Virus record (IMG/VR): IMGVR_UViG_3300040806_002556
Span: 1-20,370 of that record
Source: a virus
Reading direction: 5' to 3' (one strand)
Length of the DNA: 20,370 nt
Position 1 is the first letter of the stretch. Every line of letters begins with the position of its first letter. The translations under genes were made by a program, and so were the position numbers. The notes under the pieces are model-generated. The model was not told the origin of the DNA. It saw only the letters and a program-made list of their open reading frames with translations, and did no database searches. Of the stretch, positions 1-19,274 are shown in pieces.

Positions 1-194
1 TTTAGGTCCCAAAGTATCTGTTTCATTTTTACATTTTCCCAACAGTACGTGTCTGGCAAAGGTGATTTCAACTGCGGCAGGCTGGAATTCTTGTTACTAT
101 CATTCCATATCCTGATAGATATTGTCTCATATTCGGTGTATTTGGCATCTAGGAATTGTTTGAAATTGAAATCAATAGAAATTTTTGCATACAT
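1..194 (-). CDS. Partial hypothetical protein, runs off the left edge
   Basis: An uninterrupted minus-strand frame runs from an ATG at 194 to the window edge. It gives about 64 residues beginning MYAKISIDFNFKQF and containing the stretches TEYETISIRIWND and DTYCWENVKMKQ. I do not recognise the family. Support for it being a real gene is the open frame, plausible composition, and a T4-type late promoter box (AATAAATA, 200-207) ending 5 nt before the ATG. No Shine-Dalgarno is visible, so translation would be leaderless or nearly so. The late box suggests a virion or other late function, but that is inference. The C-terminus lies outside the window. Confidence 0.6.
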   Translation of the reverse strand, partial: MYAKISIDFNFKQFLDAKYTEYETISIRIWNDSNKNSSLPQLKSPLPDTYCWENVKMKQILWDL

Positions 195-199
195 GCAAA

Positions 200-207
200 T
201 ATTTATT
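200..207 (-). promoter_or_regulatory. Late promoter box AATAAATA
   Basis: The minus strand reads AATAAATA, one base from the T4 late consensus TATAAATA. It ends 5 nt before the ATG of the partial gene at 194. In T4 the start site lies about 6 nt past the box, so the transcript would begin at the start codon. It also abuts a 7-bp inverted repeat (184-199). Confidence 0.55.
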
Positions 208-230
208 GGCCTGTCGAACGTGGTGATTTC

Positions 231-695
231 TTATTGGATCAAGCCAGGCTTGTAGACGGTCTTGCCGTTTTCTTTCATCGCAGTCAGCACACTCTTACGA
301 TTTCCCTCCGACTTGTATGAAACGTGTACCCAACCAGAGTCAGGTATTCCTGGTGTGTAGAATTCCAGGATAAGTTGATCGAAGTCTAGGTTGTCTTCTA
401 TGAACTTTGCGACGTCATAGTTTGGTGTGCCCGGACATTCTATGTCCACTGCTTCACCTTTGCAGTGCTGTGACTTGCTTGAACCACCCACCGCTTCGTT
501 CAGTGCTGGTCCCCTGTAGCCTGAGTTGATCACCGTGACCCCAAATTGATCCCTGACCTTTTGTACTACATTCTCAAAAAGTTCTTTTGCGTTAGCGAGG
601 TGTTCCTCACCTGGAGTGTTATCGATGCCTTGTCTAAGGGCAGTCTGGCTCTTGGTGAATTCCTGCAACGTGAAATTTGTGCTTAATCTTGTCAT
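231..695 (-). CDS. Peptidase M15-type zinc carboxypeptidase/endolysin candidate
   Basis: This 154-aa protein matches the peptidase M15A (D-Ala-D-Ala carboxypeptidase-like) fold. An SGYR motif sits at residues 58-61. The zinc site follows as SQHCKGEAVDI, with H77 and D84 as ligands, and WVHVSY supplies the third ligand H124. Such enzymes cut peptide cross-links in bacterial peptidoglycan. In a T4-like phage this could be the lysis endolysin or a virion-associated muralytic enzyme. There is no signal peptide, so a separate holin or virion placement would be needed. The start codon overlaps the stop of the upstream 244-aa gene (TAATG), so the two are translationally coupled and probably late. 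The family call is firm; the exact role is inferred. Confidence 0.88.
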   Translation of the reverse strand: MTRLSTNFTLQEFTKSQTALRQGIDNTPGEEHLANAKELFENVVQKVRDQFGVTVINSGYRGPALNEAVGGSSKSQHCKGEAVDIECPGTPNYDVAKFIEDNLDFDQLILEFYTPGIPDSGWVHVSYKSEGNRKSVLTAMKENGKTVYKPGLIQ

Positions 696-1429
696 TATAT
701 TTTACTTAACAGAGCAGACTCGCCACCCTTGCTGAAAATGAATCTGTCCTCTGTGGTCTTTGTGATCTGATATGGTCCGAAATATTTTGTTAGAAACAAA
801 CACTCACTTATGGCACTCTCGTCTAGCCTAAATGCCTTGACTTCGTTCATGATCATGTTGGTGTTACCAAATGCGTGTAATTCAAATTTCAGTGTGTCTG
901 CACCCCGCTTCTTGACTTCTATTACGTTGTTGTCCAGTTTGAATTCCATCATCTGGAACTTGTCAAAGAACGTCTTGACCTCCCCCAGTCTCATGCTCTG
1001 TATCTTCTGTGTGTAGGCTATCGGTGTTCTGGGCAGTATGTCTGCCAGGTTCTTGGCCGATGCCTCGAAAGGTGTTGGATCCTTGTGGTAAGTGAATTCG
1101 AAAGTTTCGATGTTTGTTAGTTTTGCGAGATCATCAAGGAACTTCCTGATCTCCCTGTCCACTTTCTCTGTCCTGGCGAACTCAACGAACACCCTGTGCT
1201 TGCCGTCCTCCAGCGTGCCCGGTGTAGCGTCAGCGTCCAGCACTTCCTTGTATCCGGTCTCTGCGAAACGTTCTAGGTCCTTGGCTGGAGCCTGTCCGTC
1301 CACTGATAATGCCAGCACCATGATGTTGCGGTCATCGCCCATCTTGGATTTGAATTGGTCTACCGAGAATCGTTTGTGTACGACTCCGTCTAGGTCTCCG
1401 GCTTTTAATCCTTCTTTAAGAAATGTCAT
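695..1429 (-). CDS. Conserved T4-like marine phage protein, possible virion component (244 aa)
   Basis: This is a 244-aa soluble, mixed-charge protein with no signal peptide, membrane segment or cysteine motif. I recognise no enzymatic motif. It lies between a 160-aa gene with a late promoter and the M15 peptidase gene, overlapping both (14 nt upstream, TAATG downstream), so all three are probably one late transcript. That context, and the general look of conserved T4-like cyanophage proteins, suggests a structural or assembly role. This is an inference only. The ATG at 1429 has no strong ribosome site, so coupling to the upstream gene is likely. Confidence 0.75.
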   Translation of the reverse strand: MTFLKEGLKAGDLDGVVHKRFSVDQFKSKMGDDRNIMVLALSVDGQAPAKDLERFAETGYKEVLDADATPGTLEDGKHRVFVEFARTEKVDREIRKFLDDLAKLTNIETFEFTYHKDPTPFEASAKNLADILPRTPIAYTQKIQSMRLGEVKTFFDKFQMMEFKLDNNVIEVKKRGADTLKFELHAFGNTNMIMNEVKAFRLDESAISECLFLTKYFGPYQITKTTEDRFIFSKGGESALLSKI

Positions 1430-2255: not shown

Positions 2256-2531
2256 TTATTTGACGAACTGATCCATGGCATCGGCGTACCACTGGCGGTA
2301 GTGCTGTTCTATGCGTTCGAATGGGATCTCGTCCCTCTGGGCCACTGGTATGCCCGGTAGTTCATTCTTGATGACTTCCTTGTTCACGAGATCTAATATT
2401 ACTGTGTATTCCAGTGCCTTGCCTGGTCCTATCTTCTTCTTTGAGAGTTCAACGAACTCATCGAACTTCTTGTCTGCTTTTATTATGTACTTCACACAGA
2501 AGTATCTCTTCTTGTTGTGTTTGCTACCCAT
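2256..2531 (-). CDS. 91-aa protein directly after gp44, in the usual gp62 position
   Basis: This is a 91-aa protein with a lysine-rich N-terminal half (residues 5-34) and a C-terminal IEQHYRQWYADAMDQF helix. It starts inside the end of the clamp loader gene (8-nt overlap), with GAGG 8 nt before the ATG. In T4 and relatives, gene 44 is followed by gene 62, the small clamp loader subunit. This protein is half the length of T4 gp62 (187 aa) and I see no convincing sequence match, so the gp62 role rests on position alone. It could equally be an unrelated replication or regulatory protein. Confidence 0.7.
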   Translation of the reverse strand: MGSKHNKKRYFCVKYIIKADKKFDEFVELSKKKIGPGKALEYTVILDLVNKEVIKNELPGIPVAQRDEIPFERIEQHYRQWYADAMDQFVK

Positions 2532-3450
2532 TCTGTAACCTCGCTAGTTTTATCATGCAACTGGCTAAATTTATCTCAGGGTCAGCGACAAACGAATGAT
2601 CCACCAACGCCTGCTTGATAATTAGCACCGCCTTGTCCTGCTGGTCCTCATCTTTGGACACCAGTTCCAGGTTGTCATACAGCCATCTGTATATCTCCTC
2701 ACACTCCTCTGGTCTGGCCTGTGCGCAGACAAGTTTACGTGCTTCCTGTATCTTGCCCTGCTTGAACAGTTCTACCATCTCCAACCTGTAGTCCTGTTGA
2801 CCACTATCGCCCTTGGCAGGTGGCATCAACTTGCCATCCCTCACGTTCTGTTGCACCATGTTGATGCACTTCCTCAGATCCGGATAACTTGCCTTCACAT
2901 ACGTGTCTAAAGTGTCTATGTCCTGTTCAACATTCTCCGCGATCAAGATCTCCGCGACCCTGGCGGTGAATTCCGTCTTGTCTATGGTCTCCATGTGGAA
3001 GCCCTGGCATCTGCTGTGAAGTGCCGGGATCACCCTGTTGGGATAGTTACAGGTCAGTATGAATCTTGCTGAGGTGTGATAAGCCTCCATCACGCCACGC
3101 AGTGCGGCCTGTCCGTTTGGACTCATGTAGTCCGCTTCATCCAGCAACACATACTTGTATGCGCCGAAAGGCATGATCTGTACGAAGTTGTTGATCTTCT
3201 CCCTGACCGTGTCCACCGAGTTCTCCCTGGATGCGTTTATCTCCAGTATGTCATAACTGCTAACGTCTAGTTCATGGAACAGCATCTTGGCCAGTGTGGT
3301 CTTGCCTACTCCTGGTGCTCCTGATAGTAGCAAGTGTGGTATGGACTTCTCGTCAATCCAGCTCTGTATCTGTTGTCTTTGTGCTTCGTCCCTGACCACG
3401 TACTCCTTCAGAGTCTTAGGCCTGTATTTTTCTACCCATAAATCTTTCAT
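2524..3450 (-). CDS. 44: Sliding clamp loader ATPase, T4 gp44-like (RFC small subunit family)
   Basis: This 308-aa AAA+ protein is close to the usual gp44 length (319 aa in T4). The N-terminus WVEKYRPKTLKEYV is the RFC/gp44 signature. Walker A is GAPGVGKTT (residues 44-52), Walker B VLLDEAD (101-107), sensor 1 lies near TCNYPN (133-138), and the SRC motif is at 146-148. The protein is expected to load the gp45 sliding clamp onto primed DNA with gp62 and to supply ATP hydrolysis, for both replication and late transcription. It lies between uvsE and the 91-aa gene. A weak sigma-70-like promoter in the end of uvsE points at its ATG. The family assignment is secure. Confidence 0.95.
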   Translation of the reverse strand: MKDLWVEKYRPKTLKEYVVRDEAQRQQIQSWIDEKSIPHLLLSGAPGVGKTTLAKMLFHELDVSSYDILEINASRENSVDTVREKINNFVQIMPFGAYKYVLLDEADYMSPNGQAALRGVMEAYHTSARFILTCNYPNRVIPALHSRCQGFHMETIDKTEFTARVAEILIAENVEQDIDTLDTYVKASYPDLRKCINMVQQNVRDGKLMPPAKGDSGQQDYRLEMVELFKQGKIQEARKLVCAQARPEECEEIYRWLYDNLELVSKDEDQQDKAVLIIKQALVDHSFVADPEINLASCMIKLARLQNG

Positions 3451-3455
3451 ATGTG

Positions 3456-4499
3456 CTATATTACAGAAGTTTCCTTCGCTTGTCTATATAATTGTTCCGA
3501 GGCCATGTTTTTACCTTTGGCCTCCACCTGTATGTCGAAGTTTTCCGAGAACGAAAGAGCCCAATCATTTACCTTACGATTTGGTAATAGGTCCGAGTGT
3601 GCCCTCAGTTTCTGTTTCTTGCAACCTCTCGCAAGTAGATCTTTAATGTCATGCATCTCGGTGTGTGTTCGTTCACCAAGGTCTGCTACCGCAAGATGTT
3701 CGTCTCGTGAATACGAATAATGCATACTGGGTCTCTGACCACGCCACGAATCTATCACACGTTTGACCCTGTCGTCCGTGGGTTCGATGTACTCCTCGTC
3801 ACGGATCCAGTGGTGATGCACATCTAGGACCAATGCGAGATCCTTCTCCAATTCCAGGCTCTTCTCCAAGCCGTGTCCCATCTCGTCATTCTCGATCGTT
3901 ATCAGGTTCCTTGCCTCTGTTGATAATCTGGGTAGTGCCTTCCTGATGCCGTCTGGTCCTTGACGGCCTGATATGTGTACATTAATTTTACAACCATCCT
4001 GGAAGCTCTTGCCAAACCCCATCCATCTGGCCATGTCCGCGTGGTATTCGAATTCTTCTATGCTACGTTCAACTATGTCTGGTGTGTCTGACGCCAGCAC
4101 ACAGAACTGTCCCGGATGGAATGAAACTTTCACATCCAACTTCCTGGCCATCTCTCCCACGGGTGCGAATAGGTTCGCTAGGTGATCCTGTATGTCCTGT
4201 TGTTGCCACCATGACTTCCAGTCCTTCTCGGTGTAGCCCTGTAGCATTTCGCTACCTAGCCTCACCATCCTACGTTCCGGTGGCAGTGTGCCCACACGTT
4301 CTATCAACCTACGTGCGGCCGTTGTGTTGTGTGTCATGATGTCCCACTGTCGCTGTTCGGCCTCTTCCTGGTGTTCACGTAGCCAACGCATCGTGGTGCT
4401 TCTGCCGTTTAGATCACGGTCCTTGGCGTTGACTTTCATGCCGCCAAACTCCGACTCGTCGTTGAGCCATTTACAACAGAAACCAAAACGCTGTATCAT
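3456..4499 (-). CDS. uvsE: UV damage endonuclease (UvdE/UvsE family)
   Basis: This 347-aa TIM-barrel endonuclease cuts 5' to cyclobutane dimers and 6-4 photoproducts, starting alternative excision repair. Family motifs are visible in order: N-terminal RFGFCCKWLN (4-13), RLGSEM (80-85), VSFHPGQF (125-132), H153 in EYHADMA, KINVHISG (171-178), IENDE (202-206) and DVHHHW (226-231). These include the His, Glu and Asp residues that bind the metal cluster. Length is normal for the family. A phage in sunlit water would gain protection of its DNA. The start is fixed by the conserved N-terminal strand. A consensus sigma-70 promoter ends 6 nt before the ATG, so the gene is probably early and leaderless. 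Confidence 0.93.
   Translation of the reverse strand: MIQRFGFCCKWLNDESEFGGMKVNAKDRDLNGRSTTMRWLREHQEEAEQRQWDIMTHNTTAARRLIERVGTLPPERRMVRLGSEMLQGYTEKDWKSWWQQQDIQDHLANLFAPVGEMARKLDVKVSFHPGQFCVLASDTPDIVERSIEEFEYHADMARWMGFGKSFQDGCKINVHISGRQGPDGIRKALPRLSTEARNLITIENDEMGHGLEKSLELEKDLALVLDVHHHWIRDEEYIEPTDDRVKRVIDSWRGQRPSMHYSYSRDEHLAVADLGERTHTEMHDIKDLLARGCKKQKLRAHSDLLPNRKVNDWALSFSENFDIQVEAKGKNMASEQLYRQAKETSVI
3458..3486 (-). promoter_or_regulatory. Weak sigma-70-like promoter for gp44
   Basis: On the minus strand TAGACA (3481-3486) and TAATAT (3458-3463) are 17 nt apart. The -10 box ends 7 nt before the gp44 ATG. The match is 5/6 and 4/6, weaker than the other promoters here, but the geometry is the same: the -35 box lies in the last codons of the upstream gene and the start site falls at the ATG. 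Confidence 0.35.
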
Positions 4500-4505
4500 C
4501 CTACA

Positions 4506-4533
4506 ATTATAGCACTGATTGCCTATTTGTCAA
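4506..4533 (-). promoter_or_regulatory. Consensus sigma-70 promoter for uvsE
   Basis: Minus strand TTGACA (4528-4533), 16-nt spacer, TATAAT (4506-4511): both boxes match the consensus perfectly. Six bases separate the -10 box from the ATG at 4499, so the start site would be at the start codon. The -35 box is made from the final codons (I-D-K) of the upstream ParB-like gene. Confidence 0.85.
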
Positions 4534-4906
4534 TTTGTGATTGTGCCCAATCATTGATCAATCCGGACACTTTCAAGCGGAATTTTGATTCCCTGTCCAC
4601 ATCTCTGAGGATCTTGTTGGCCTTCGCCAATTGCAATCCTTGTGCGACTGGTAATTTTATTGCTGTTGCAGTCTTTTTTCTCTGCTTCTTGAGTGCCTGT
4701 ACCCTGTGCCAGCCGTCCAATAATATAAAGTATCCAGAATCTTTTATTGGTGCCACTAAAATAGGTTTCTGTTTTTTATTTTTTGTGAGTCCTTTGATCC
4801 AGGTCCTCTTCTCTCGGTTCAATGGCCGTTCAACACCCAGTCCAATGTCGGCCATTGTGACCAGTTTCTTTATTTCAACTTCAATCGGTTTCATAGTCCA
4901 ATCCAT
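4523..4906 (-). CDS. ParB-like nuclease-domain protein
   Basis: This 127-aa protein carries the ParB/sulfiredoxin N-terminal motif. KKQKPILVAPI is followed by YFILLDGWHRVQALKK, where DGWHR (about residues 64-68) corresponds to the GxHR nucleotide/phosphate-binding core of ParB-like domains. A basic KKQRKKTATAIKLPV strand follows. Only the ParB-like domain is present, with no helix-turn-helix partition domain, so plasmid-style partition is unlikely. Phage proteins of this type may be nucleases or CTP-binding switches. It is the last gene of the gp31 unit and overlaps the zinc protein gene. The start could also be the ATG at 4894, giving 123 aa. Confidence 0.75.
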   Translation of the reverse strand: MDWTMKPIEVEIKKLVTMADIGLGVERPLNREKRTWIKGLTKNKKQKPILVAPIKDSGYFILLDGWHRVQALKKQRKKTATAIKLPVAQGLQLAKANKILRDVDRESKFRLKVSGLINDWAQSQIDK

Positions 4907-5126
4907 TTATGTCAATTATTATCTGCCATTCTGGTCCTTTTGGTAGTGGCCTGCGTTGTGGGTAATCGTTCTCGTCTGAGATCTCCCTGTATTGATTGGC
5001 GCAGACGGGCCCACAGAACGGTCTGATTATCCTCTTGTCATATTTTGTGTCATGTAGGCTGTCGTACCAGTAAATCGCATTGAAGAATTCTTTTTTACAA
5101 ACGTAACAGGTGTGTGATCTAGTCAT
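4881..5126 (-). CDS. Small zinc-binding protein (81 aa)
   Basis: This 81-aa protein has two cysteine pairs, CYVC (C7, C10) and CGPVC (C38, C42), that would form one zinc-binding treble-clef-like site. The C-terminus is acidic. I do not recognise the family; small treble-clef proteins in phages often bind nucleic acid or RNA polymerase. It overlaps the aminotransferase-like gene by 8 nt at its start and the ParB-like gene by 26 nt at its end, so the three are almost certainly co-translated. No strong ribosome site precedes the ATG, in line with coupling. Confidence 0.75.
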   Translation of the reverse strand: MTRSHTCYVCKKEFFNAIYWYDSLHDTKYDKRIIRPFCGPVCANQYREISDENDYPQRRPLPKGPEWQIIIDINGLDYETD

Positions 5127-5988
5127 TTTTTAATAACAGGTTGGCTACCCCAACCATCCCTTCATTTTCTTTGCTGTAAGCACTCATCAAAGTTTTCAAA
5201 GGCTTCAAATCATGTTTATTGCATAAGTCATAGTATTTTTTTTTGTATTTGGTGATCAGGTAATCCATTGGGAATTTGTCAAGATAGTATTTCCCTATCA
5301 TCACATTAGGATAGGAGACCATTCTGTATTGGTTCTCGATCTTTATCGTGTCGCTTGTTTCGTGCTTGAGCCATCTCACACCAATCCTGCACCAATGCAT
5401 ACCAAAAGGTTTGCTTAGACTTGTCGCCATGCCTTTGATACAGTGTGCGCCTAGATCCAAATCTTGCTCCCAAGCGCAAGGTAACCAAGCACAATCCAGG
5501 TACACATCGATTCCCATGTCGTCGGCCCTGCTTATGATTTCATTGTATTGTGGATGTCTATCTCCTGAAGACGGAAATGGGTATTCCAATATCAACGGTT
5601 TGCCAGGCATCATGCTATCTAAATCAACATGTGCGAATTCCGGGTCTAATTTTCGATAATAGTTATATCCACCTTTGAAAACTTGTATGTTCCGCAGGCC
5701 ATGTGTCATTATTATTTGATCTATGAAGTGTTGGCATCCTGTGATGACATCTCTCTGGGTAAAGAGCTCTAAACCTTTCACTTTGATGTATTTGTGTGAC
5801 AACAAAGACTGCTGAAATGCGTGTATGAAATTATTGTATTCCGAAGTTATGTATGGGAATGATTTGTTTTCTTTGTTTTTGAAGAAATCGCCTCTTGCCT
5901 GGAGCAATTGGCGGTCATTGGAAAAGGGAGGTATCCAGTCTATCGCGAAACCTTTGTCATCGAAAAGTCTGTTTTGTTCACTAGTCAT
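5119..5988 (-). CDS. Short PLP-dependent aminotransferase-like protein (fold type I, class I/II)
   Basis: This 289-aa protein has the hallmark layout of class I aminotransferases. VYLDCAW (D165) corresponds to the DxAY motif whose Asp pairs with the pyridoxal ring nitrogen. ATSLSKPFGMHWCRIG (188-203) fits the class-I PLP attachment pattern with one mismatch: K193 as Schiff-base lysine and R201 as phosphate-side Arg. EYPFPSSG (135-142) sits where NPTG normally lies. The protein is about 100 residues shorter than typical enzymes, so substrate-binding parts are reduced. Substrate and pathway are unknown. The gene overlaps the gp31-like gene by 8 nt upstream and the zinc gene downstream. I am fairly sure of the fold, unsure of activity. 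Confidence 0.7.
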   Translation of the reverse strand: MTSEQNRLFDDKGFAIDWIPPFSNDRQLLQARGDFFKNKENKSFPYITSEYNNFIHAFQQSLLSHKYIKVKGLELFTQRDVITGCQHFIDQIIMTHGLRNIQVFKGGYNYYRKLDPEFAHVDLDSMMPGKPLILEYPFPSSGDRHPQYNEIISRADDMGIDVYLDCAWLPCAWEQDLDLGAHCIKGMATSLSKPFGMHWCRIGVRWLKHETSDTIKIENQYRMVSYPNVMIGKYYLDKFPMDYLITKYKKKYYDLCNKHDLKPLKTLMSAYSKENEGMVGVANLLLKND

Positions 5989-6424
5989 TGCCCGGCAGTG
6001 AAGTCATCTGTCGCATACCGCCCGTGTTGATGTAGCCGGCCTGCCTGTTGTTGAAGTCTGGTTCCTCTTCGGATACCAGCAGGATGTCATTCTCGTCGAT
6101 CATCCTAACTTCCAGCTCTTCGCCCGCTTTCTTGACCTTGAGTGCCCTGGACCATCTGCCGTGTGCCACGAGTAGCCATTCGCCCACCCGCACGTCTTCC
6201 TGTTCCTTGCCAACTGCGTATACCTTGGCCCATCTTGGGTGTATGCCCGCTTCTGTGCCGTCGTCGTCAAGCAAGATGATTCCACCCTTTGATTTTGTGG
6301 CTCCGAACTGCATGTCTGAAACCAAAACCCTCTTCTTCAGTGGTGTGATGTCGTAGTCAACGGTGTACTGCTTACCACCATGCGATCCGAATCCTTTTGC
6401 TTGTAGATCTTCTATCTGTCCCAT
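5981..6424 (-). CDS. 31: GroES-like cochaperonin, T4 gp31-like
   Basis: This 147-aa protein carries the GroES barrel signature. KKRVLVSDMQ (30-39) is followed by a mobile-loop segment GATKSKGGIILL (41-52), whose GGIIL corresponds to the GroEL-binding GGIVL of GroES. ARWAKVYAVGKEQ-type and VRVGEWLLVAHG segments follow as in GroES. It is longer than GroES (about 95 aa) and T4 gp31 (111 aa), with an extra C-terminal tail. T4 gp31 replaces GroES so that host GroEL can fold the capsid protein gp23. A near-perfect sigma-70 promoter lies just before the ATG, implying early expression with the PLP, zinc and ParB-like genes behind it. Confidence 0.88.
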   Translation of the reverse strand: MGQIEDLQAKGFGSHGGKQYTVDYDITPLKKRVLVSDMQFGATKSKGGIILLDDDGTEAGIHPRWAKVYAVGKEQEDVRVGEWLLVAHGRWSRALKVKKAGEELEVRMIDENDILLVSEEEPDFNNRQAGYINTGGMRQMTSLPGND

Positions 6425-6911: not shown

Positions 6912-6919
6912 TACTTATC
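6912..6919 (-). promoter_or_regulatory. Possible late promoter box GATAAGTA
   Basis: Minus strand GATAAGTA differs from the GATAAATA box seen elsewhere by one base. It is followed by AGGAG and the ATG at 6889, a normal leader arrangement. It lies at the very end of the DnaE-like gene. Low confidence because of the mismatch. Confidence 0.3.
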
Positions 6920-7439
6920 ATCGCAGGAATTCGGTGATGTCCAAATCGTACAGCATGGGATTGATCTTGTGTACTCCTATCAGGAACAGACAGAAACTGG
7001 CCACGCTGGATCCCCTGCCCACACCCCAAACAATATTATTAGCTCGTAGCGTGTCAACAAAATAGATCAGGAACTGTAGTACCCTTATAAATTTTTTCTT
7101 TTCAAATAGGTTGTATTCCAGTTGTACCCTCTGTCGTTCTTCGTCACTCTGACATCTCTCCAAAAGCCATTCCAGCATATTGATCTTGTAGTACTGTTCT
7201 GGCATGTGCCATGTGTTGATGTTCTTGTGATCGAACTCTGCCAGTGGTTCCCTGTTGGGTGCTGTGTTAATTTTTGGTAAATCCAGTCCAAGCTCTTTTA
7301 GTGCCATGCTGTATTTTGCAGTGTCTTCGAAGAACAGTCTTGATATGTCAAAATCTGGATCGGTGTAAAGCAAGTCAACGGCATCCTCTTCCGAGAACGT
7401 CACGTCTCCGTGGTCATTTGTCTTTGTCTTTTCCGCCAT
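6918..7439 (-). CDS. DnaE-like fragment lacking the catalytic aspartates (173 aa)
   Basis: The last 65 residues resemble bacterial DNA polymerase III alpha (DnaE) just before its active site. FEKKKFIRVLQFLIYFVDTLR is followed by WGVGRGSSVASFCLFLIG (138-155), which matches the DnaE GPGRGSgaGS motif, then INPMLYDLDITEFLR for the DP..YDLLFERFLN segment. In DnaE the catalytic PDxDxDF follows within about ten residues; here the protein stops after FLR. It therefore has the phosphate-contacting GRGS loop but no catalytic Asp and cannot be a polymerase alone. The N-terminal 80 residues are unassigned. AAAGGTG lies 5 nt before the ATG, and the gene overlaps the upstream 211-aa gene by 26 nt. Confidence 0.7.
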   Translation of the reverse strand: MAEKTKTNDHGDVTFSEEDAVDLLYTDPDFDISRLFFEDTAKYSMALKELGLDLPKINTAPNREPLAEFDHKNINTWHMPEQYYKINMLEWLLERCQSDEERQRVQLEYNLFEKKKFIRVLQFLIYFVDTLRANNIVWGVGRGSSVASFCLFLIGVHKINPMLYDLDITEFLR

Positions 7440-11328: not shown

Positions 11329-12315
11329 TTATAAGTCTATTGTTGTCCTCTGGAACTTGAACACAGTGCTATCACTAGTGATGTTTGTGGCCTTCAACCT
11401 CACGTTTCCGTTCAACACATCAACTGAGAATTGTGCTATAGGAAGTGTTGAACCGTCACTGGAATAATTCGACAGTTCCCCAAACACCGTGATGTAGGCC
11501 TCTGTTGTGCTGTCAGCACTGGGACCATGCACCACGTTGGCCTCCACCATCTCGTACCTGTCGTTGGTGGTGTCTGATATTGAGATGTAGTATTTGGCAC
11601 TCCTGTAAGTGGCTGAGTCGAATGTGTCTATCACTGTGGTCGCGGAAGACGCCACTGTTGAGGTGTTGTCGTTGATGTCTGAATGGCTGAGCGTAGCAGT
11701 GGCAGTCGCAAATCCTAGATTGCCCGCGCCGTCTGTCTTGAGGAACTGTCCTGTTGTCCCGTCTGATGTGGGGAATTTTAAACCTTGTATCGAGACTGTG
11801 CCCGTGCCGTTGCCAGTGATCTCCAGGTCAGCGTTGGTTGTTATTGGAGTGATCGTGTTGCTTGTGATTTCCACACTGCCGATGCTGGCCGAGGTACTGG
11901 CTGTAAGCGTGGTGAAACTTCCGGCCACCGCCGTGTTGGCTCCTATCACTGTGTTGTCTATAGCACCACTGTTGATGTCCACTTTTGAGATTACCACACT
12001 GCCTATACCGTTTGGTTGCAGTACAAGATTGGAATCGCTCACGGTGGTCTTGATTATGTTGTCAGTGATGTTGATGTTTGAATCTACTGTCAGAGACGGC
12101 GCTGTTACCACACCCGTGCCCGAAGGTTCCAGCACTAGATCATCATTGGACCTGTTGGCTCTTATCTCGTTGCCGGTGATGGTTATGAAGTCACTGATGA
12201 TGGGACTGGCGTATATCTCGTTGAAGTTGTCGTTGACTTTGTCCATTGCGACACGTAGAGTGTCACCTGTGCCATCATTGGCCGTTGCTCCTATGTTCAG
12301 TGTCTGCTGTGCCAT
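11329..12315 (-). CDS. Fibre-like structural protein, paralogue A (328 aa)
   Basis: This 328-aa low-complexity protein is rich in Thr, Ser, Asn, Ile and Val. The N-terminus LNIGATANDGTGDTLRVAMD leads into KVNDNFNEIYA, a motif shared with the next two genes. The middle has repeats of the type DLVLEPSGTGVV and NLVLQPNGIGSV. The C-terminal domain YRSAKYYISISDTTNDRYEM is shared with paralogue B. Such proteins are usually tail or head fibre components of T4-like marine phages. It starts at a TAATG junction with paralogue B and has AAGG just before. A 71-bp segment (11798-11868) is identical to paralogue B. Confidence 0.78.
   Translation of the reverse strand: MAQQTLNIGATANDGTGDTLRVAMDKVNDNFNEIYASPIISDFITITGNEIRANRSNDDLVLEPSGTGVVTAPSLTVDSNINITDNIIKTTVSDSNLVLQPNGIGSVVISKVDINSGAIDNTVIGANTAVAGSFTTLTASTSASIGSVEITSNTITPITTNADLEITGNGTGTVSIQGLKFPTSDGTTGQFLKTDGAGNLGFATATATLSHSDINDNTSTVASSATTVIDTFDSATYRSAKYYISISDTTNDRYEMVEANVVHGPSADSTTEAYITVFGELSNYSSDGSTLPIAQFSVDVLNGNVRLKATNITSDSTVFKFQRTTIDL
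11798..11868. repeat. 71-bp exact repeat, copy 1
   Basis: Bases 11798-11868 are identical to 12775-12845, although the flanking sequence of the two genes has diverged. It encodes a segment including ITSNTITPITTNADLEITGN in the same frame of both proteins. Identity extends through third codon positions. Confidence 0.9.
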
Positions 12316-13292
12316 TATACCTTAATCAATCTCCTCACGAATTTTATCACGTGATTGTTAGTGTTATTTAATCTTCCCTGCAGGGCAATATTGCCGCCCG
12401 CAACTATGGCGTTGAAATCCATGGTGTCATACACGGTGGATCCGTCCCCATCACCGTTGTCCACACCACCAAAAACACTAATGTATGCTATAGATCCATC
12501 ATGTGTGACCGTGGCCTCGATCAACCTGTACCTGTCCGCCGTGGCGTCTGAGATCTGTATGTGGTACTTGGCGCTCCTGTAGGTGCTCAGGTCCCAGGAA
12601 TCTATGGTCTGGTATGCCGAAGTCGCAGTGAGCGTGGCCGTGCCATCGTCTATTAATGTTTGATCGAAAAGAATGGGTGAACTGAAGAATGTTAGGTTCC
12701 CGGCGCCGTCTGTCCTGATCACTTGATGTTGTGCACCGTCCGTGGATGGCATCTTCAGCCCTTCGATGGAAACAGTGCCCGTGCCGTTGCCAGTGATCTC
12801 CAGGTCAGCGTTGGTTGTTATTGGAGTGATCGTGTTGCTTGTGATGGCCACCCCGTCCGCATTGAGGGTGGTGGCCGAAAGTGTTGTGAATGTTCCCGCC
12901 GCCGGTGTTGTGCCTCCGATCACGGTGCCGTCTATGTCGCCGGAGTTGATGTCTGATTTTGTTATCTGTATCGACCCTAAATTAGATGCATCTAATTGTA
13001 GATCGTAATTAGTCACATCCACCTTGATCACATTGTCTGTGATGTTGATGGTGGAATCTATTGTTATGGTCGGGATGGCAACCACACCAGTTCCTGATCC
13101 TGCCAGCACGAGGTCTCCGTTTGTCAGGGTGTTTTTGATGTTATTCCCTGATATACTGATATTAGATGACATGGCCGAGTTGGCGTATATCTCGTTGAAG
13201 TTCGAGTTTATCTTTGCGCCCGCGGTCCTGATGCTGTCGCCGGTACCGTCGGCACCGCCTAATGTACCTAGGTCAATCGTCTGTTTCGCCAT
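12315..13292 (-). CDS. Fibre-like structural protein, paralogue B (325 aa)
   Basis: This 325-aa paralogue of the 328-aa protein downstream has the same layout: an N-terminal DGTGDSIRTAGAKINSNFNEIYA-type motif, central DLVLAGSGTGVVAIPT and DLQLDASNLGSIQI repeats, and the C-terminal domain TYRSAKYHIQISDATADRYR. The two differ along most of their length but share one exact 71-bp block. The stop overlaps the ATG of paralogue A (TAATG). The start at 13292 lies next to the stop of the 121-aa paralogue, with only a weak AGGCG upstream, so coupling is likely. Probable tail or accessory fibre protein. Confidence 0.78.
   Translation of the reverse strand: MAKQTIDLGTLGGADGTGDSIRTAGAKINSNFNEIYANSAMSSNISISGNNIKNTLTNGDLVLAGSGTGVVAIPTITIDSTINITDNVIKVDVTNYDLQLDASNLGSIQITKSDINSGDIDGTVIGGTTPAAGTFTTLSATTLNADGVAITSNTITPITTNADLEITGNGTGTVSIEGLKMPSTDGAQHQVIRTDGAGNLTFFSSPILFDQTLIDDGTATLTATSAYQTIDSWDLSTYRSAKYHIQISDATADRYRLIEATVTHDGSIAYISVFGGVDNGDGDGSTVYDTMDFNAIVAGGNIALQGRLNNTNNHVIKFVRRLIKV
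12775..12845. repeat. 71-bp exact repeat, copy 2
   Basis: Second copy of the identical 71-bp block, inside paralogue B. See copy 1 at 11798-11868; the distance between copies is 977 bp, in direct orientation. Confidence 0.9.
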
Positions 13293-13293
13293 T

Positions 13294-13659
13294 TTATATC
13301 GCCTGTAATACTAGTTTCTTCCAGATGGCAGTTGAACCATCATAGTTGGCAGTGCAGATGTACAGGTTGGTCGCGTCCCAACTGATTGATCCCGCTACAT
13401 CACCCGTGGCTCCTATTGCTGTTGGTGTCTTGGTGGTCGTGATCACTAATCTGTCAGCATTGACTTGTACTTGTCCCGTGCCATTTGGATCTAATATGAT
13501 GTTTCCGTTGGTGTCAGCACTCAGTAAAGTGTTGCCTGACATCTGTAGGTCACCGGCCAACTCCGCGAAATTGGTGTTGATCTTGGTCATCGCCGTGCGT
13601 AAAGTGTCGCCCGTCGCTGGATTTCCCGCCGTTCCTGTGTCTATCGTTAATCTAGCCAT
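13294..13659 (-). CDS. Short fibre-like paralogue C (121 aa)
   Basis: This 121-aa protein begins MARLTIDTGTAGNPATGDTLRTAM and then TKINTNFAEL, the same N-terminal motif as paralogues A and B. It has one beta repeat (NIILDPNGTGQVQV) and a different C-terminal domain, SISWDATNLYICTANYDGSTAIWKKL, which resembles the end domains of many phage fibre proteins that read SxxWDxxxLYICT. It is the first gene of the structural block and has a late box (13673-13680). A short adaptor or tip protein of the fibre is plausible. No Shine-Dalgarno is visible. Confidence 0.75.
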   Translation of the reverse strand: MARLTIDTGTAGNPATGDTLRTAMTKINTNFAELAGDLQMSGNTLLSADTNGNIILDPNGTGQVQVNADRLVITTTKTPTAIGATGDVAGSISWDATNLYICTANYDGSTAIWKKLVLQAI

Positions 13660-13672
13660 AATCTGTTATGCG

Positions 13673-13685
13673 TATTTATTAAATA
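13673..13685. promoter_or_regulatory. Bidirectional late promoter (overlapping opposed boxes)
   Basis: TATTTATTAAATA is an inverted repeat with 6-bp arms and a 1-bp centre. On the minus strand it gives AATAAATA (13673-13680), 13 nt before paralogue C. On the plus strand it gives ATTAAATA (13678-13685), 5 nt before the ATG at 13691. It appears to drive the divergent pair from one overlapping site. Confidence 0.55.
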
Positions 13686-13690
13686 TCAAT

Positions 13691-13894
13691 ATGTTCATAG
13701 AGACGCAGAAGACCCTCAAACTGTTCAAGAGGGAGAGCAAACTGGGTGTCTGCCACACCGTGCGTCGCAACAACATCATGTACATCTTCAGGTGTGACCG
13801 CTGTGGTGACACTTTCAAGAAGCCCAAATCACGGGTAGATCCCGAACGCATGGACAAGGGCCACGAGCACTTCTGTGACCGTTGTGATCTATAA
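13691..13894 (+). CDS. Plus-strand zinc-ribbon protein (67 aa)
   Basis: This 67-aa protein begins MFIETQKTLKLFKRESK. It has two CxxC knuckles, CDRC (C35, C38) and CDRC (C62, C65), separated by a basic stretch KKPKSRVDPERMDKGHEHF. Two such pairs make a single zinc ribbon or HNH-like treble clef; similar small proteins are common in T4-like cyanophages. The role could be nucleic acid binding. The frame is open further upstream, but that part is antisense to the 121-aa gene; the ATG at 13691, right after the promoter inverted repeat, is the natural start. The stop overlaps the end of the convergent GNGxSR gene by 6 nt. Confidence 0.72.
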   Translation: MFIETQKTLKLFKRESKLGVCHTVRRNNIMYIFRCDRCGDTFKKPKSRVDPERMDKGHEHFCDRCDL

Positions 13895-14632
13895 TCGCAT
13901 CCAACTGATGTCGTCACGCCGGCCTGTGATCCAACGCTGTAGGTCAGCATAGATGCCCGACCTTATGTTGGGCTGATCGAAGTACCAACGCAGGAACGTG
14001 TTGCCGTCCAGGTACTCGCGCCTGTTGATGAAGCGGAAGTTGGTGTCGGGGAATCGCCTGAATATTTGTCTCAGTTGGTACATCCACTCGTACTTGAGAT
14101 AGGCCTTCATGCTGTGCCTGTCCGGGTAGTTGGGGGAACTTTTATAAATGTTGTTCTGTATCCTGCTGGGTTCCGGCATCTCCCACTGCTGTGCGCCCAG
14201 GATGTCGAATCCTATTATCACTACATTTTTAATACCACTCTCCGCGGCCATCAGCACCGCCGAACAGCCTGAACCCCTGTTGTTGGAGAAGTCCTCGGTC
14301 TTGATACGGCCACCCTTCTTCATGTTGCCACCACGCCATATCCTGTAGATCTTGAGTCCCCGGGGCACGTCCATCTCCCGGTCTCCGTCACAGATGTAGT
14401 TCCAACGACTGATGTCCTCTATGCCGTGTATCTGAGTAGAACTATCTGTTGTATCGTGCCACTGTTTCAATTCTTCATACATGGGAGGGTTCACAGCCAC
14501 TATGTGATCACACAGTTTTGGATGATCCCTATAGATGGCGTTACAGCCATACACTATGCCCTTGCCTTTTAATGTTTCTATGGGGAATATCTTTCTTGAC
14601 TCACCGTTGCCTATGACAAATGCGGTGTCCAT
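13889..14632 (-). CDS. GNGxSR/CNAIYRD Rossmann-type protein, copy 1 (247 aa; possible glycosyltransferase)
   Basis: The N-terminus FVIGNGESRKIFPIETL (GNGES at 8-12) followed by VYGCNAIYRD (27-36) is a Rossmann-like sugar-nucleotide or nucleotide-binding layout. The G-N-G-x-S plus C-N-x-x-Y pattern recalls GT42 sialyltransferases and DUF115/MptE-type proteins. A later VVIIGFDILG strand fits the same fold. It is paralogous to the protein at 18639-19274. The frame is open to 14788, but the ATG at 14632 is chosen because it overlaps the iscA stop (TAATG) and starts right before the fold. Function is inferred from fold only. Confidence 0.7.
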   Translation of the reverse strand: MDTAFVIGNGESRKIFPIETLKGKGIVYGCNAIYRDHPKLCDHIVAVNPPMYEELKQWHDTTDSSTQIHGIEDISRWNYICDGDREMDVPRGLKIYRIWRGGNMKKGGRIKTEDFSNNRGSGCSAVLMAAESGIKNVVIIGFDILGAQQWEMPEPSRIQNNIYKSSPNYPDRHSMKAYLKYEWMYQLRQIFRRFPDTNFRFINRREYLDGNTFLRWYFDQPNIRSGIYADLQRWITGRRDDISWMRL

Positions 14633-14967
14633 TATATACCAAAAGACTCTCCACAACCGCATGCGGAGGTTGAGTTGGGATTGCTTATCTCGAACTGTGA
14701 TCCAAACGTCTCTTCGATCCAATCGATCCGGGTGCCCGCCACGTACAGCATCGAGGTCTCGTCCACCACGAAACGTCCCGTGCCCCAATCCTCAACGTGG
14801 TCTCCCTCGGCTATGCTCTCCATGGTGTCTGCGAATCCCCATTCGTACTTGAAGCCCGCGCATCCACCACCCAGCACCGCCAGGCTCACAGCCCACTTGC
14901 CGGGGTTCTTGGCCAGCAGTCGTTCTATCTGTTGTTTGGCCGCGTCTGTTATTTCGAATAAACTCAT
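14632..14967 (-). CDS. iscA: A-type iron-sulfur cluster carrier (IscA/HesB family)
   Basis: This 111-aa protein has the complete A-type carrier signature: C36 in LGGGCAGFKYEW, and C103 and C105 in SACGCGESF at the C-terminus. These three cysteines bind the iron-sulfur cluster. FEITDAAKQQIERLL at the start is also typical. The family passes clusters to apo-enzymes; in a marine phage it would support host or phage iron-sulfur proteins during infection. The frame is open to 15129, but that part overlaps the upstream gene and lies outside the family domain, so the ATG at 14967 is used. A CATAAT lies 7 nt before it with no good -35 box. Confidence 0.92.
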   Translation of the reverse strand: MSLFEITDAAKQQIERLLAKNPGKWAVSLAVLGGGCAGFKYEWGFADTMESIAEGDHVEDWGTGRFVVDETSMLYVAGTRIDWIEETFGSQFEISNPNSTSACGCGESFGI

Positions 14968-14981
14968 ACTAGTAATTATGC

Positions 14982-15308
14982 TTACCTGTTTCCCATGTTC
15001 TTGACTCCGATTGCTAACCAGAATCTTGAAGCGTCCCTTTTCTTCTCGAAGCTCATGTAGGCGTCCTGTTCCTCCCAGTTGTGCCACTGCTCGTCGTACA
15101 GGTTCTTGTTCTCGAACCACCAACCCCAACGGCCCTCACAATTGACCTGGCACCACTCGATGCAGTCGCCCATTATGCCGTTGGCGTTCATGTCGATGTT
15201 GAAACGGAACTTCTTCTCGTATCCACAGTCCTCTGGGATCTCATCTAGGTGTGCCCTAACACGTGTGATTTTGGCGGCTTCGTAAAACTTTTTCTCCCCT
15301 ATGCTCAT
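14982..15308 (-). CDS. Conserved hypothetical phage protein (108 aa)
   Basis: This 108-aa protein is rich in aromatic residues. A stretch GDCIEWCQVNCEGRWGWWFEN includes three cysteines, and the C-terminal AYMSFEKKRDASRFWLAIG looks like a conserved phage motif. I recognise no function. The cysteines might bind a metal, and the neighbour is iscA (15-nt gap), so a link to iron-sulfur proteins is possible but only a guess. A consensus sigma-70 promoter sits 5 nt before the ATG, which suggests strong early expression of this gene and of iscA and the GNGxSR gene behind it. Confidence 0.75.
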   Translation of the reverse strand: MSIGEKKFYEAAKITRVRAHLDEIPEDCGYEKKFRFNIDMNANGIMGDCIEWCQVNCEGRWGWWFENKNLYDEQWHNWEEQDAYMSFEKKRDASRFWLAIGVKNMGNR

Positions 15309-15313
15309 TCTTT

Positions 15314-15342
15314 ATTATAGGATGACTATTTCCAGTTGTCAA
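15314..15342 (-). promoter_or_regulatory. Consensus sigma-70 promoter for the 108-aa gene and iscA
   Basis: Minus strand TTGACA (15337-15342), 17-nt spacer, TATAAT (15314-15319): perfect boxes with ideal spacing. The -10 box ends 5 nt before the ATG at 15308. The -35 box is part of the V-I-D-N-W-K codons ending the glycosyltransferase gene. Confidence 0.87.
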
Positions 15343-16021
15343 TCACGAACTGATCAGCACATTCCATGGGGTTTGGTAAACCATGGAACACCGCTACCCG
15401 GTTGCCGGGTTCTATCTTGGCCGGAGTGCGGAACCACTTACGACCATCCTTGGTCAGCAGTTTGGTATCTTTCAATCCCACCATCTCCCACTTGTAGGAT
15501 CTGATCCATTCCTCAGGGAACCAAGTGATGTCCTTTGATGCTCTCTTTGTGATCCAGTCCTGGTCTCCGTGATTTGACTGCATGATCTGTGCGGAGCGAT
15601 CCTTGAATTCGGTCCACAGGTAATCCATGGTGCCCGACTGCCATCGCATGCAACTGCTGTTGCTCAGTTTCCAGTCCTTGACCCTGCACCTGTTGAAGTC
15701 CCTGATTATGTTGAACTTGCCTGTGTGTGAGAACAAGGAATCAATGTTGTCAAATATCACCACATCCAGGTCGAAGAACAGTATGTTGCCCTTCACTGGC
15801 ATCTCGGGTGCGAACATCCACAGTTTGCTCCACCAACTCTTGATCCAAGGATCATTGGGAAGTTTGACAACATTGACGTCAGGATCTAATCCAGTGGGAT
15901 CGTCGGTGAGGCAATGGAACTGGTAGGGCACAGTGGTGTGCCTCTTGACCATGCTGTTCAATACATTCGCATACTTGGGGATATACTTATTGCCCCATTT
16001 CACACAAACCACGTGATTCAT
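15326..16021 (-). CDS. Glycosyltransferase with DxD motif (GT-A fold, GT8-like; 231 aa)
   Basis: This 231-aa protein has the layout of a small GT-A glycosyltransferase. VVCVKWGNKYIPKYANVLNSM sits at the start, then SWWSKLWMFAPE, then NILFFDLDVVIFDNIDSLF (79-97), where DLD (84-86) is the metal and nucleotide-sugar binding DxD motif. A late VAVFHGLPNP gives the C-terminal metal-binding His seen in the GT8-type fold. It probably moves a sugar from a nucleotide donor to an unknown acceptor: virion protein, DNA or host glycan. The frame is open to 16108, but AAGGAGGG 4 nt before the ATG at 16021 fixes the start. It overlaps the 383-aa gene by 35 nt. Confidence 0.82.
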   Translation of the reverse strand: MNHVVCVKWGNKYIPKYANVLNSMVKRHTTVPYQFHCLTDDPTGLDPDVNVVKLPNDPWIKSWWSKLWMFAPEMPVKGNILFFDLDVVIFDNIDSLFSHTGKFNIIRDFNRCRVKDWKLSNSSCMRWQSGTMDYLWTEFKDRSAQIMQSNHGDQDWITKRASKDITWFPEEWIRSYKWEMVGLKDTKLLTKDGRKWFRTPAKIEPGNRVAVFHGLPNPMECADQFVIDNWK

Positions 16022-17138
16022 AACCCTCCTTGAGATAATCCATTTGTATCTTCTTCCAATCATCGTCATCAAGCCTGTACGGATATTCACAAACTGTGTC
16101 CGGCGCACCTCTGACAGTGATCTTTTTTATATTTAAATTGTTTTTCATCTGTTTGTAAACTTCCAAAAAGTCCTGCGAGCCAAAATTTTTCTGTGTGTCT
16201 ATCTGGCCCAGTTTGATGTACCCCAAAGACAATTTAGGATCTTCCCAGTCGTATCCATTTTGTGCAAGCCACGACCTGTAATTGTGCATCTCTTCTTTCT
16301 TCCAATCAAAGGTGTCCTCTACTATTGTTTGTCCCCATTCTATGTCGAATTCACCTGAATAATATTTCTGATGATTGATTGTGCTACATATCGCATCGGT
16401 CATCTCGGGTGCGTCCTCATCTCTCCACACTTCGAACAGTGTCTTGCCCACCTGGCTCCAGTGAAGGTAAACTCCACCCAGTTCCCGGTCATACCTGTTC
16501 TTTTTGAACAGTTCAAAATCTTCATCATGAAGGTCGTGTCTCGGTGCGTTGAGGAACGTGGTGATCTGTGAAGGTCGCATCCATTCCGGTTCTATGTGTT
16601 TTTTCCTGTCGGCCTCTACCCAACTTTCTATTTCGTGGCATATGTTGTTCAATTGCCTGATCGCATATTTGGTCGGATAGTCTGCTTGTTTGTAAAATTC
16701 CGATAATCGCCAAGCGGTGCCCTGCAGATCCTCGAAATACCTGTGCAGTAGATTACAGGCATCGTGCTTGAGTCTGAGTCCTGGCGTCTTGCTTATGTCT
16801 CCATCGGGTGCTTTGCCTATTGGCAAGCGACCGCTGTATTGGAAGTCGTCTGCTACGAAAGGGTGTATGTGTTTGTATGGAGGATCAAAATGGAAAGAGT
16901 TTATTTGTTCAACATTGTTGTTCAGTTCTTGAACAAGGTAATTTAGATCCCTTGAGCTATCGGCCCAGCCCAGCCAACAAAAATTTTTCTCCAGCACTCT
17001 CTTTCTAGATAGATTGTCACGCAGTGCATCTAAAAAACGATGCGACAAAGGCGAGTCATAGATATCAACTGTTACATCTCGATCGTCGAGAGATAAAACG
17101 ATTTTGTCTTTGATTTTATTTCCTTGTGTAGATGGCAC
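15987..17138 (-). CDS. Conserved hypothetical phage protein (383 aa)
   Basis: This protein of about 383 aa is rich in Trp, Asp and charged residues, with no motif I can assign. Notable stretches are NSFHFDPPYKHIHPFVADDF, GGVYLHWSQVGKTLFEVW and YRSWLAQNGYDWEDPKLSLGYI. It has no signal peptide or membrane segment. The start is uncertain: the frame has no nearby ATG. GTG at 17138 has GGAG 6 nt upstream and is preferred; GTG at 17168 has its GGAG-type site too close. It overlaps queD at its start and the glycosyltransferase at its end, so it shares their transcript. A link to glycosylation or deazapurine chemistry is possible from context only. Confidence 0.72.
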   Translation of the reverse strand: MPSTQGNKIKDKIVLSLDDRDVTVDIYDSPLSHRFLDALRDNLSRKRVLEKNFCWLGWADSSRDLNYLVQELNNNVEQINSFHFDPPYKHIHPFVADDFQYSGRLPIGKAPDGDISKTPGLRLKHDACNLLHRYFEDLQGTAWRLSEFYKQADYPTKYAIRQLNNICHEIESWVEADRKKHIEPEWMRPSQITTFLNAPRHDLHDEDFELFKKNRYDRELGGVYLHWSQVGKTLFEVWRDEDAPEMTDAICSTINHQKYYSGEFDIEWGQTIVEDTFDWKKEEMHNYRSWLAQNGYDWEDPKLSLGYIKLGQIDTQKNFGSQDFLEVYKQMKNNLNIKKITVRGAPDTVCEYPYRLDDDDWKKIQMDYLKEGYESRGLCEMGQ

Positions 17139-17565
17139 TGTTTGCTCCGTGTTCCATGCATTCCACACTCTCCACGAAACATCTTCCGTTGGTCTGTTTT
17201 CTAACTAGATCGTCAGCGAAGTCAAATGCGTGTTTGGCAAACATCTCCGCACCCACTCCGTCGAACTCCACGATCTCCGCGAGGTCATGTTTCTCCAGTT
17301 CTTTCAGTTTGTCCAGGTGTGGATCATTCTTGTCCACTGCTGTCTTGTGATCGAAGTGATCTTCCAACCATTTCTTGAGAGGTTTGAGTCCACCAAAGTC
17401 CACCGCCCAGTTCTTGTTGTCCAGTTCGTTGCAACCAAACGTGAATCTGAAAGCAAGGCTGTAGCCGTGCAGTAAGTGGCAGTGTGAATGGTCCGCGTTG
17501 GGTTGTCTGAACACACAGGCCAAGCCTATGTTGTGTCCGTATGTTTTTGTTGAGTAGTAAGTCAT
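17116..17565 (-). CDS. queD: 6-carboxytetrahydropterin synthase-like (QueD/PTPS family)
   Basis: This 149-aa protein of the QueD/6-pyruvoyl-tetrahydropterin synthase family would make the second intermediate toward preQ0 from dihydroneopterin triphosphate. Visible features: GHN (H11), SHCHLLHGYSLAFRF with C29 and H33, WAVDFGGLKPLKKWL, FDHK (H73), and VECMEHGANSA with the acid-base Glu. The usual HGH zinc pair reads HGY here, a change I recall from a bacterial and phage subgroup. Phages use deazapurines to modify DNA or to affect host tRNA; no other queuosine gene is in the window. AGGAG lies 8 nt before the ATG. Confidence 0.85.
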   Translation of the reverse strand: MTYYSTKTYGHNIGLACVFRQPNADHSHCHLLHGYSLAFRFTFGCNELDNKNWAVDFGGLKPLKKWLEDHFDHKTAVDKNDPHLDKLKELEKHDLAEIVEFDGVGAEMFAKHAFDFADDLVRKQTNGRCFVESVECMEHGANSAIYTRK

Positions 17566-18625: not shown

Positions 18626-18653
18626 ATTATATTTTGTTTTATTTCTTTGTCAA
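18626..18653 (-). promoter_or_regulatory. Consensus sigma-70 promoter for the MBD4-like gene
   Basis: Minus strand TTGACA (18648-18653), 16-nt spacer rich in A, TATAAT (18626-18631): both boxes perfect. Six bases separate the -10 box from the ATG at 18619. The -35 box overlaps the L-T-K-K end of the upstream GNGxSR gene. Confidence 0.87.
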
Positions 18654-19274
18654 CTGCCGGTTGATGAACTTGACCATACCGTCGTAGGTCTCCTGGTACA
18701 CGTTGGAATGTTTGCGCCATTCCTCTGGCATCTCCCAACGATCATGATTCACCACTATCCATCTGGTGTCTGGATCCGAGTAGCCCATCAGTTTGTGGAA
18801 CTGGTAAATCCAGTAACTGGGATCAACTGGTCTCTTGATGTAGGTGTAGCCCTCCGATCCCGTGTACATGTTGTTGATCTTGTCCTTCTCTAAAGGATGT
18901 AGATCGAATCCCAACATGAATATGGCCTTGGGCTTGTAGGTCAGTGCCAGGTTGCCCGCGTGCGGTCCGGTGCCCCAGTGGAACGGGTCATCCTGTCGCT
19001 TGTCTCCCGAGTAGGGTAGGTCTGGTAATTTGCGGACGTTGGGCCACGCCGCGAACTGATCCGCCCAGTCCTGTCTGGTGAATATCGTGGTGCCCTTACC
19101 AACCGCGTTCGCGGCCTGTTGGCACATGTGGCGGTCAGCACACACCAGGTATTCCGTGACGAAGTCTCGGTAGATGGCATTACAACCAATCACCGTGCTG
19201 AACGATTTCAATGGAGAGATGTCAAATCCCCGCCTTGATTCACCGTTGCCTATTATGCTCACATACTTGGTCAT
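18639..19274 (-). CDS. GNGxSR/CNAIYRD Rossmann-type protein, copy 2 (211 aa; possible glycosyltransferase)
   Basis: This paralogue of the 247-aa protein at 13889-14632 has SIIGNGESRRGFDISPLK (GNGES at 9-13), VIGCNAIYRD (28-37), LVCADRHM, and a later AIFMLGFDLHPL strand that parallels VVIIGFDILG. The layout suggests a Rossmann-like fold of the GT42/DUF115 kind, perhaps a glycosyltransferase. The two copies differ in length and middle region, so they probably have different acceptors. The ATG is preceded by ATTAAATA (19280-19287) with 5 nt between and no ribosome site. Its last codons hold the -35 box of the MBD4-like gene. Confidence 0.7.
   Translation of the reverse strand: MTKYVSIIGNGESRRGFDISPLKSFSTVIGCNAIYRDFVTEYLVCADRHMCQQAANAVGKGTTIFTRQDWADQFAAWPNVRKLPDLPYSGDKRQDDPFHWGTGPHAGNLALTYKPKAIFMLGFDLHPLEKDKINNMYTGSEGYTYIKRPVDPSYWIYQFHKLMGYSDPDTRWIVVNHDRWEMPEEWRKHSNVYQETYDGMVKFINRQLTKK

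Follow-up and report, generated by a model that had tools for sequence, protein, structure and literature searches.

Class I/II aminotransferases (PF00155; AvtA, HisC, AspC) share with the phage protein described here (P0001) the fold, the Lys, the Asp, the phosphate-binding Ser and Arg and the spacing of these residues, and the two align by catalytic-core profile. They measure 335-420 aa, as against about 290 aa for P0001. Unlike PF00155 enzymes, the clade to which P0001 belongs (clade A) does not have Asn at the N194 position, carries Trp at Y225 and lacks the R386 segment, and P0001 has no Pfam match. As for PLP enzymes carried by viruses, the phage 5-ALA synthase vAlaS has an essential lysine and published activity (PMC11480375), and activity has been demonstrated for a viral ornithine decarboxylase (PMC9992855). 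The sequence-only reading of our locus, which held that known phage PLP enzymes act in base hypermodification or amino-sugar synthesis, was therefore too narrow on this point. vAlaS is a full-size alpha-oxoamine synthase making 5-ALA, and P0001 matches no such family in Pfam or NCBIfam.

Other counterparts were found among phages. Protein QOI69043.1 of Pelagibacter phage Mosig EXVC030M ('putative aminotransferase') is a distant member of the same family, with the motif SLSKCFG and a C-terminal R-I-N-I-S; compared with P0001 it sits on a very long branch and has kept the C-terminal Arg. Its gene is surrounded by Asp_Arg_Hydrox, desaturase and dioxygenase genes, and the Mosig genome announcement makes no mention of an aminotransferase. 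A search of viral structures returned one closely similar miniature fold, the uncharacterized BFVD entry A0A6J5KXV0 from an uncultured Caudovirales phage (282 aa, TM 0.87/0.89, 30% identity), which has the same miniature fold as P0001. Finally, the amino-then-amidino tailoring known from streptomycin, which pairs the inosamine-phosphate amidinotransferase StrB with an aminotransferase, resembles the situation in a sister group of the family (group B), likewise found beside an amidinotransferase, the best solved relative of which is StrB. It differs in that the phage PLP protein is class-I-like and not of the DegT type, and in that the P0001 locus shows no amidinotransferase.

The PLP gene and its locus

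The window, i.e. the whole stretch of DNA analysed, is an entire IMG/VR virus record of 20,370 bases, itself a genome fragment. The features around the PLP gene, with the codons discussed below, are as follows:

1..194, minus strand: small AspH-like oxygenase gene, first 64 codons; window 1-700 is 100% identical to L004:10751-11450
2524..3450, minus strand: clamp loader ATPase, T4 gp44-like (phrog_168, 3e-81); 53% to PA5oct-like jumbo phages
3456..4499, minus strand: endonuclease, which we take to be UvdE-like (phrog_8420, 1e-67); far border of the cargo slot
4523..4906, minus strand: ParB-like protein, 127 aa, next in the array (phrog_1033, 3e-5)
4881..5126, minus strand: 81-aa Cys-rich, zinc-ribbon-like ORF; 8-base overlap with the 3' end of the PLP gene
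5119..5988, minus strand: P0001, predicted miniature fold-type-I PLP enzyme, 289 aa (homologue conservation, AlphaFold, Foldseek/VIA, profile alignment)
5386..5388, minus strand: codon of R201, position of AAT Arg266 (PLP phosphate); R in 73/75 homologues, K in 2/75
5410..5412, minus strand: codon of K193, predicted Schiff-base lysine (SLSK, in SLSKPFG); K in 75/75, on the catalytic Lys of AvtA/AspC/HisC
5485..5487, minus strand: codon of W168, position of AAT Tyr225 (PLP O3' ligand); W in 15/15 of clade A, Y in 57/75 overall
5494..5496, minus strand: codon of D165, predicted partner of the pyridine nitrogen (LDCAW); D in 75/75, on the Asp of AvtA/AspC/HisC
5981..6424, minus strand: gp31/GroES-like cochaperonin, upstream of the PLP gene with an 8-base overlap (phrog_931, 4e-12; phrog_3188 (GroES), 6e-6)

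The PLP gene does lie behind a cochaperonin gene, as had been noted from the sequence, and its neighbours in the window are replication and repair genes; glycosyltransferase-like genes are also carried in the window. The label 'T4-like' holds for the replisome genes, which are of T4 type, but the clamp loader is closest to those of PA5oct-like jumbo phages. The overlaps with the cochaperonin gene and the Cys-rich ORF are as would be expected for a co-transcribed gene array. Family searches with the latter ORF, including PHROGs, gave no match.

Among 56 related loci possessing both the cochaperonin and the endonuclease gene, the PLP gene was present between them in eight, once in the opposite orientation. 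The window's own gene accounts for two of these eight contigs and further ones are duplicates, which lowers the number of independent cases. In the remaining 48 loci the PLP gene was missing and the gap between the bordering genes shrank to as little as 46 bases. The Cys-rich ORF is conserved in the slot, including at loci that lack the PLP gene. Judged from these loci, the PLP gene is an optional cargo of a lineage of large T4-related phages.

Further copies occur in related genomes. The contig L004, identical to the window over the 700 bases compared, reveals the genes immediately left of the window: a 175-aa oxygenase-like gene (L004:11257-11784), of which window 1-194 is the beginning, is followed by a group B paralogue larger than P0001 (L004:11777-12715), and then by UDP-glucose dehydrogenase and epimerase genes. 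A 196-kb contig (G001) encodes a PLP protein 54% identical to P0001 and, amid tail genes, a second PLP copy belonging to clade A and paired with a small oxygenase-like gene.

Catalytic residues and conservation

We collected 75 distinct homologues from viral contigs, drawing on contigs with neighbouring clamp-loader and cochaperonin genes and on an alignment-based scan. The lysine in SLSKPFG and the aspartate in LDCAW, read earlier as a class I active site in correct order and spacing, were confirmed in the ORF, in the profile alignment and in every homologue; none lacked the lysine. K193, D165, G84 and P137 are invariant in 75/75 and S190 is present in 74/75. The spacing from K193 to R201 (+8), to S190 (K-3) and to G203 equals that of K258, R266, S255 and G268 in aspartate aminotransferase (AAT), and by position S255, K258, R266, G268, D222 and G108 of AAT are all kept in the family. 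In close relatives dN was 0.19-0.41 with synonymous sites saturated, i.e. the gene is under purifying selection. Because of this low dN and the residue conservation across the 75 homologues, we regard the gene as real and constrained.

The small size of the enzyme, also pointed out before, is genuine in comparison with its structural matches, which are mostly 335-421 aa long, but P0001 is no lone oddity. By sequence comparison, it belongs as one branch to a large family of viral proteins, which mostly measure about 260-340 aa. The sole member met in a scan of a genome collection lies on a contig (L243) of the Verrucomicrobia MAG TMED56; phage-like carbohydrate genes surround it, so this contig is probably a mis-binned phage.

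Fold and remote homology

The AlphaFold model of P0001, computed from 16 sequences derived from the window and the locus, reached pLDDT 88.7 and pTM 0.88. Structure prediction and comparison with PLP families yielded a fold-type-I architecture, large PLP domain included, in line with the sequence-only reading. Foldseek against the PDB returned 547 matches at E<=0.001, headed by T. maritima HisC (E 9.3e-11, prob 1.00). By VIA, the best match was MalY (1d2f; Z 18.7, 269 residues aligned at 3.9 A), with which numerous aminotransferases, C-S lyases and PLP enzymes dependent on O2 (RohP, MppP, Plu4) were tied; all 999 chains aligned to the model had Z>=8, and absence of a fold family from this list excludes nothing.

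Profile comparison placed the same residues. With hhalign, K193 and D165 of the family profile fell on the catalytic Lys and Asp of E. coli AvtA (94.6% probability, E 6.6e-8), AspC (80.8%) and HisC (44%), whereas five E. coli proteins taken as unrelated controls stayed below 2%; MalY reached only 7-19% by sequence. Several relatives, all belonging to group B, passed the Aminotran_1_2 (PF00155) cut-off of 19.7, with scores of 28.2 (L039), 23.0 (L007) and 22.7 (L004). P0001 alone matched nothing in Pfam, PF00155 included, nothing in NCBIfam and nothing in PHROGs (best E 0.09); tblastn against phages and a distant blastn of the locus gave no match either. The family profile found chance-level matches among PDB sequences, although one of them, HisC 1h1c (E 0.097), had the Lys and Asp placed right. 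No match to the DegT/DnrJ/EryC1/StrS sugar aminotransferases (PF01041) was obtained at E<=1 with P0001 and eight relatives. A Shedu match of P0001 in a phmmer search of PDB sequences (0.05) was dismissed as spurious. From the model, the profile alignment and the conserved residues, we conclude with high confidence that P0001 is a fold-type-I PLP enzyme, PLP binding being predicted.

An altered active site in clade A

In a maximum-likelihood tree of 42 rows, P0001 fell into clade A, which comprises 15 rows with support of 99/99. At the position of the PLP O3'-binding Asn (AAT N194), none of 75 family members has Asn, and the second O3' ligand (AAT Y225) is Trp in all 15 rows of clade A. The C-terminal motif R-[LIV]-x-[FLIV]-[STA], the Arg of which was equated with AAT R386 (substrate carboxylate) by motif and position, not by coordinates, occurs in 24/27 other rows of the tree vs 0/15 rows of clade A. 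Group B retained a canonical C-terminal R-L-C-F-S and the Tyr. Since clade A lacks the C-terminal motif, it has probably lost the usual handle for the amino-acid carboxylate, and for this reason we prefer the term fold-type-I PLP enzyme to plain aminotransferase. The latter name, given to P0001 from its sequence, is plausible: structure and profile alignment agree with it as regards the fold, but the activity is only putative. The missing O3' Asn, the replacement of Tyr by Trp and the lost C-terminal Arg argue against ordinary transamination of amino acids.

Gene company of the family

We surveyed up to eight genes on either side of 78 family genes using naive gene calls; the contigs are fragments and mutually related, so the following counts are not independent. 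A small AspH-like oxygenase was found near 54 family genes, an amidinotransferase near 49 and a fused SpoChoClust_2/_1 ('sporadic carbohydrate cluster') protein near 38. In the small oxygenase family, H-x-D...H is invariant; its profile gave no match among PDB sequences, and the predicted structure of the group B partner had an aspartyl/asparaginyl beta-hydroxylase as best Foldseek match (1.0e-5). The amidinotransferase matched StrB (1bwd; streptomycin inosamine-phosphate amidinotransferase) at 1e-81 by phmmer, better than glycine amidinotransferases. The fused protein matched TIGR04324 and TIGR04323, each below the curated cut-off.

These associations differ between branches. Members of group B accompany the AspH-like oxygenase, the 'sporadic carbohydrate cluster' protein and the StrB-like amidinotransferase. 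In clade A, outside the sub-clade linked to the cochaperonin, an oxygenase-like HxD...H gene adjoins the PLP gene in 9/9 rows; these neighbours form two families, judged by motif alone. Within the cochaperonin-linked sub-clade, which includes P0001, such a gene adjoins in 0/6 rows and no amidinotransferase is adjacent. Further family members adjoin radical SAM, carbamoyltransferase, DegT aminotransferase, UDPG dehydrogenase and epimerase genes. Among cultured phages, the amidinotransferase occurs in Synechococcus phage S-SCSM2R and in Campylobacter phages CP220 and F379, in surroundings of glycosyltransferase or nucleotide-sugar-transferase and radical SAM genes.

Two observations on these neighbourhoods may be recorded separately. 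The StrB-like amidinotransferase, the group B PLP gene, the small AspH-like oxygenase and the TIGR04324+TIGR04323 fusion make up an apparently undescribed amino/guanidino tailoring cassette of phages (L188:3081-4106, L039, about 49 neighbourhoods). In L188:523-1635 and its homologues, the first metal motif of the TIGR04324-like oxygenase half is not HxD but HQG, resembling non-haem iron halogenases in this respect.

Other features of the window

Of the features in this section, those at 17116-17565, 14632-15129, 6918-7439, 13889-14788, 18639-19274 and 11329-13659 lie on the minus strand. At 17116-17565 the window encodes a QueD-like 6-pyruvoyl-tetrahydropterin synthase (PF01242, 9e-15), which may serve pterin metabolism or part of a queuosine pathway; QueC, sought alongside it in ten related records, was not found. 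An A-type Fe-S carrier (HesB/IscA-like; PF01521, 9e-14) is located at 14632-15129, inside the glycosyltransferase region. A 173-aa ORF at 6918-7439 matches a DNA polymerase family of 171 positions (phrog_11127, 4e-46), has a GRGSS motif and appears to be a free-standing fragment of a protein resembling Pol III alpha. Related proteins encoded at 13889-14788 and 18639-19274 (both phrog_30607, the first also sialyltransferase-like) flank a glycosyltransferase-like gene at 15326-16108. Three consecutive proteins at 11329-13659 have internal repeats and a common N-terminal motif (roughly GTGDTLRTAM.K.N.NF.E) and are probably tail-fibre or virion-surface paralogues. In L270, a region syntenic with window 11329-17565 contains a very diverged PLP family member (L270:6782-7774, motif SMHK) between a 108-aa gene and a glycosyltransferase gene, a place where the window has no member.

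Proposed role and alternative explanations

We tentatively propose that P0001 is a miniature PLP enzyme in the tailoring of phage glycans or small molecules; as a whole, this mechanism is a serious possibility, somewhat short of probable. P0001 would bind PLP through K193 and D165 and is most likely catalytically active. A partner oxygenase would make or oxidise a sugar, a glycan precursor or another non-standard small molecule, and P0001 would most likely transfer an amino group to a carbonyl of that compound, or react there otherwise. In the sister group, the StrB-like amidinotransferase would then guanidinylate the new amine. The substrate would probably be of the sugar, glycan or other small-molecule class rather than a free amino acid; we infer the amino transfer, the order of steps and the identity of the substrate. 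The function of P0001 is carried over from relatives, because its own sub-clade lacks an adjacent oxygenase or amidinotransferase. A more far-reaching version, rather unlikely in our judgement, is that clade A represents a virus-specific, trimmed PLP class with altered cofactor chemistry, forming with a small 2OG-oxygenase-like partner a two-enzyme module by which large phages oxidise and then aminate a phage glycan, a protein or a metabolite.

The altered residues might instead reflect a changed reaction and not a changed substrate. P0001 could then be a lyase, decarboxylase, epimerase or O2-using oxidase, an explanation we consider possible but on the unlikely side. The Trp throughout clade A, the absence of Asn at the N194 position from the whole family and the lost C-terminal Arg agree with it, as does the presence of C-S lyases and of RohP, MppP and Plu4 among the top structural matches; these are tied in Z, however, and such ties cannot discriminate reactions, and group B has kept the canonical R-L-C-F-S and the Tyr. 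The lost O3' ligands, together with the trimmed domain, would suit a catalytically dead protein serving as scaffold or regulator, and moonlighting of the MalY kind is known, but Lys and Asp invariant in 75 distinct members and purifying selection make this barely credible. An ordinary amino-acid aminotransferase boosting nitrogen metabolism of the host during infection would fit the best scores of group B, which are to valine-pyruvate, LL-DAP and aspartate aminotransferases; given the missing substrate-carboxylate Arg of clade A, the small size and the special neighbourhood, we regard it as very improbable.

Two other explanations concern the target. PLP enzymes take part in some phage base-hypermodification pathways, and the adjoining replication and repair genes as well as the QueD-like gene in the window would suit an enzyme that works on a modified base of the phage's DNA. 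A thymidylate-synthase-family enzyme is needed for 5-hydroxymethyl bases, and G001, though incomplete, contains neither a gene of this family nor QueC, which weakens the base-modification reading; other clade A copies lie amid tail genes or beside oxygenases. We consider this target distinctly unlikely. When nearby sugar or base-modification genes were looked for, as had been recommended, the surroundings of relatives suggested sugar or small-molecule tailoring, and the longest close relative showed no base-modification signature. Modification of protein side chains, in which an AspH/prolyl-hydroxylase-like partner would hydroxylate a peptide and the PLP enzyme act on the product, appears quite improbable: the group B partner does have aspartyl/asparaginyl beta-hydroxylases as its top structural matches and the two-gene pair stands alone amid tail genes in G001, but AspH-like folds act on small molecules too, the locus of P0001 lacks the pair, and the sister group is repeatedly accompanied by carbohydrate genes.

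Significance

The fold of P0001 is ordinary; its trimmed active site, its size and the recurrent partners of the family are unusual, and a literature search of open-licence papers found no account of this miniature family. The family is a widespread group of phage PLP proteins mostly missed by current annotation libraries. Its recurrence with an oxygenase, a StrB-type amidinotransferase and carbohydrate-cluster genes points to a phage-encoded amino/guanidino tailoring chemistry. The trimmed clade A, in turn, poses the question of what minimum size and what degree of alteration are compatible with a functioning fold-type-I PLP enzyme.
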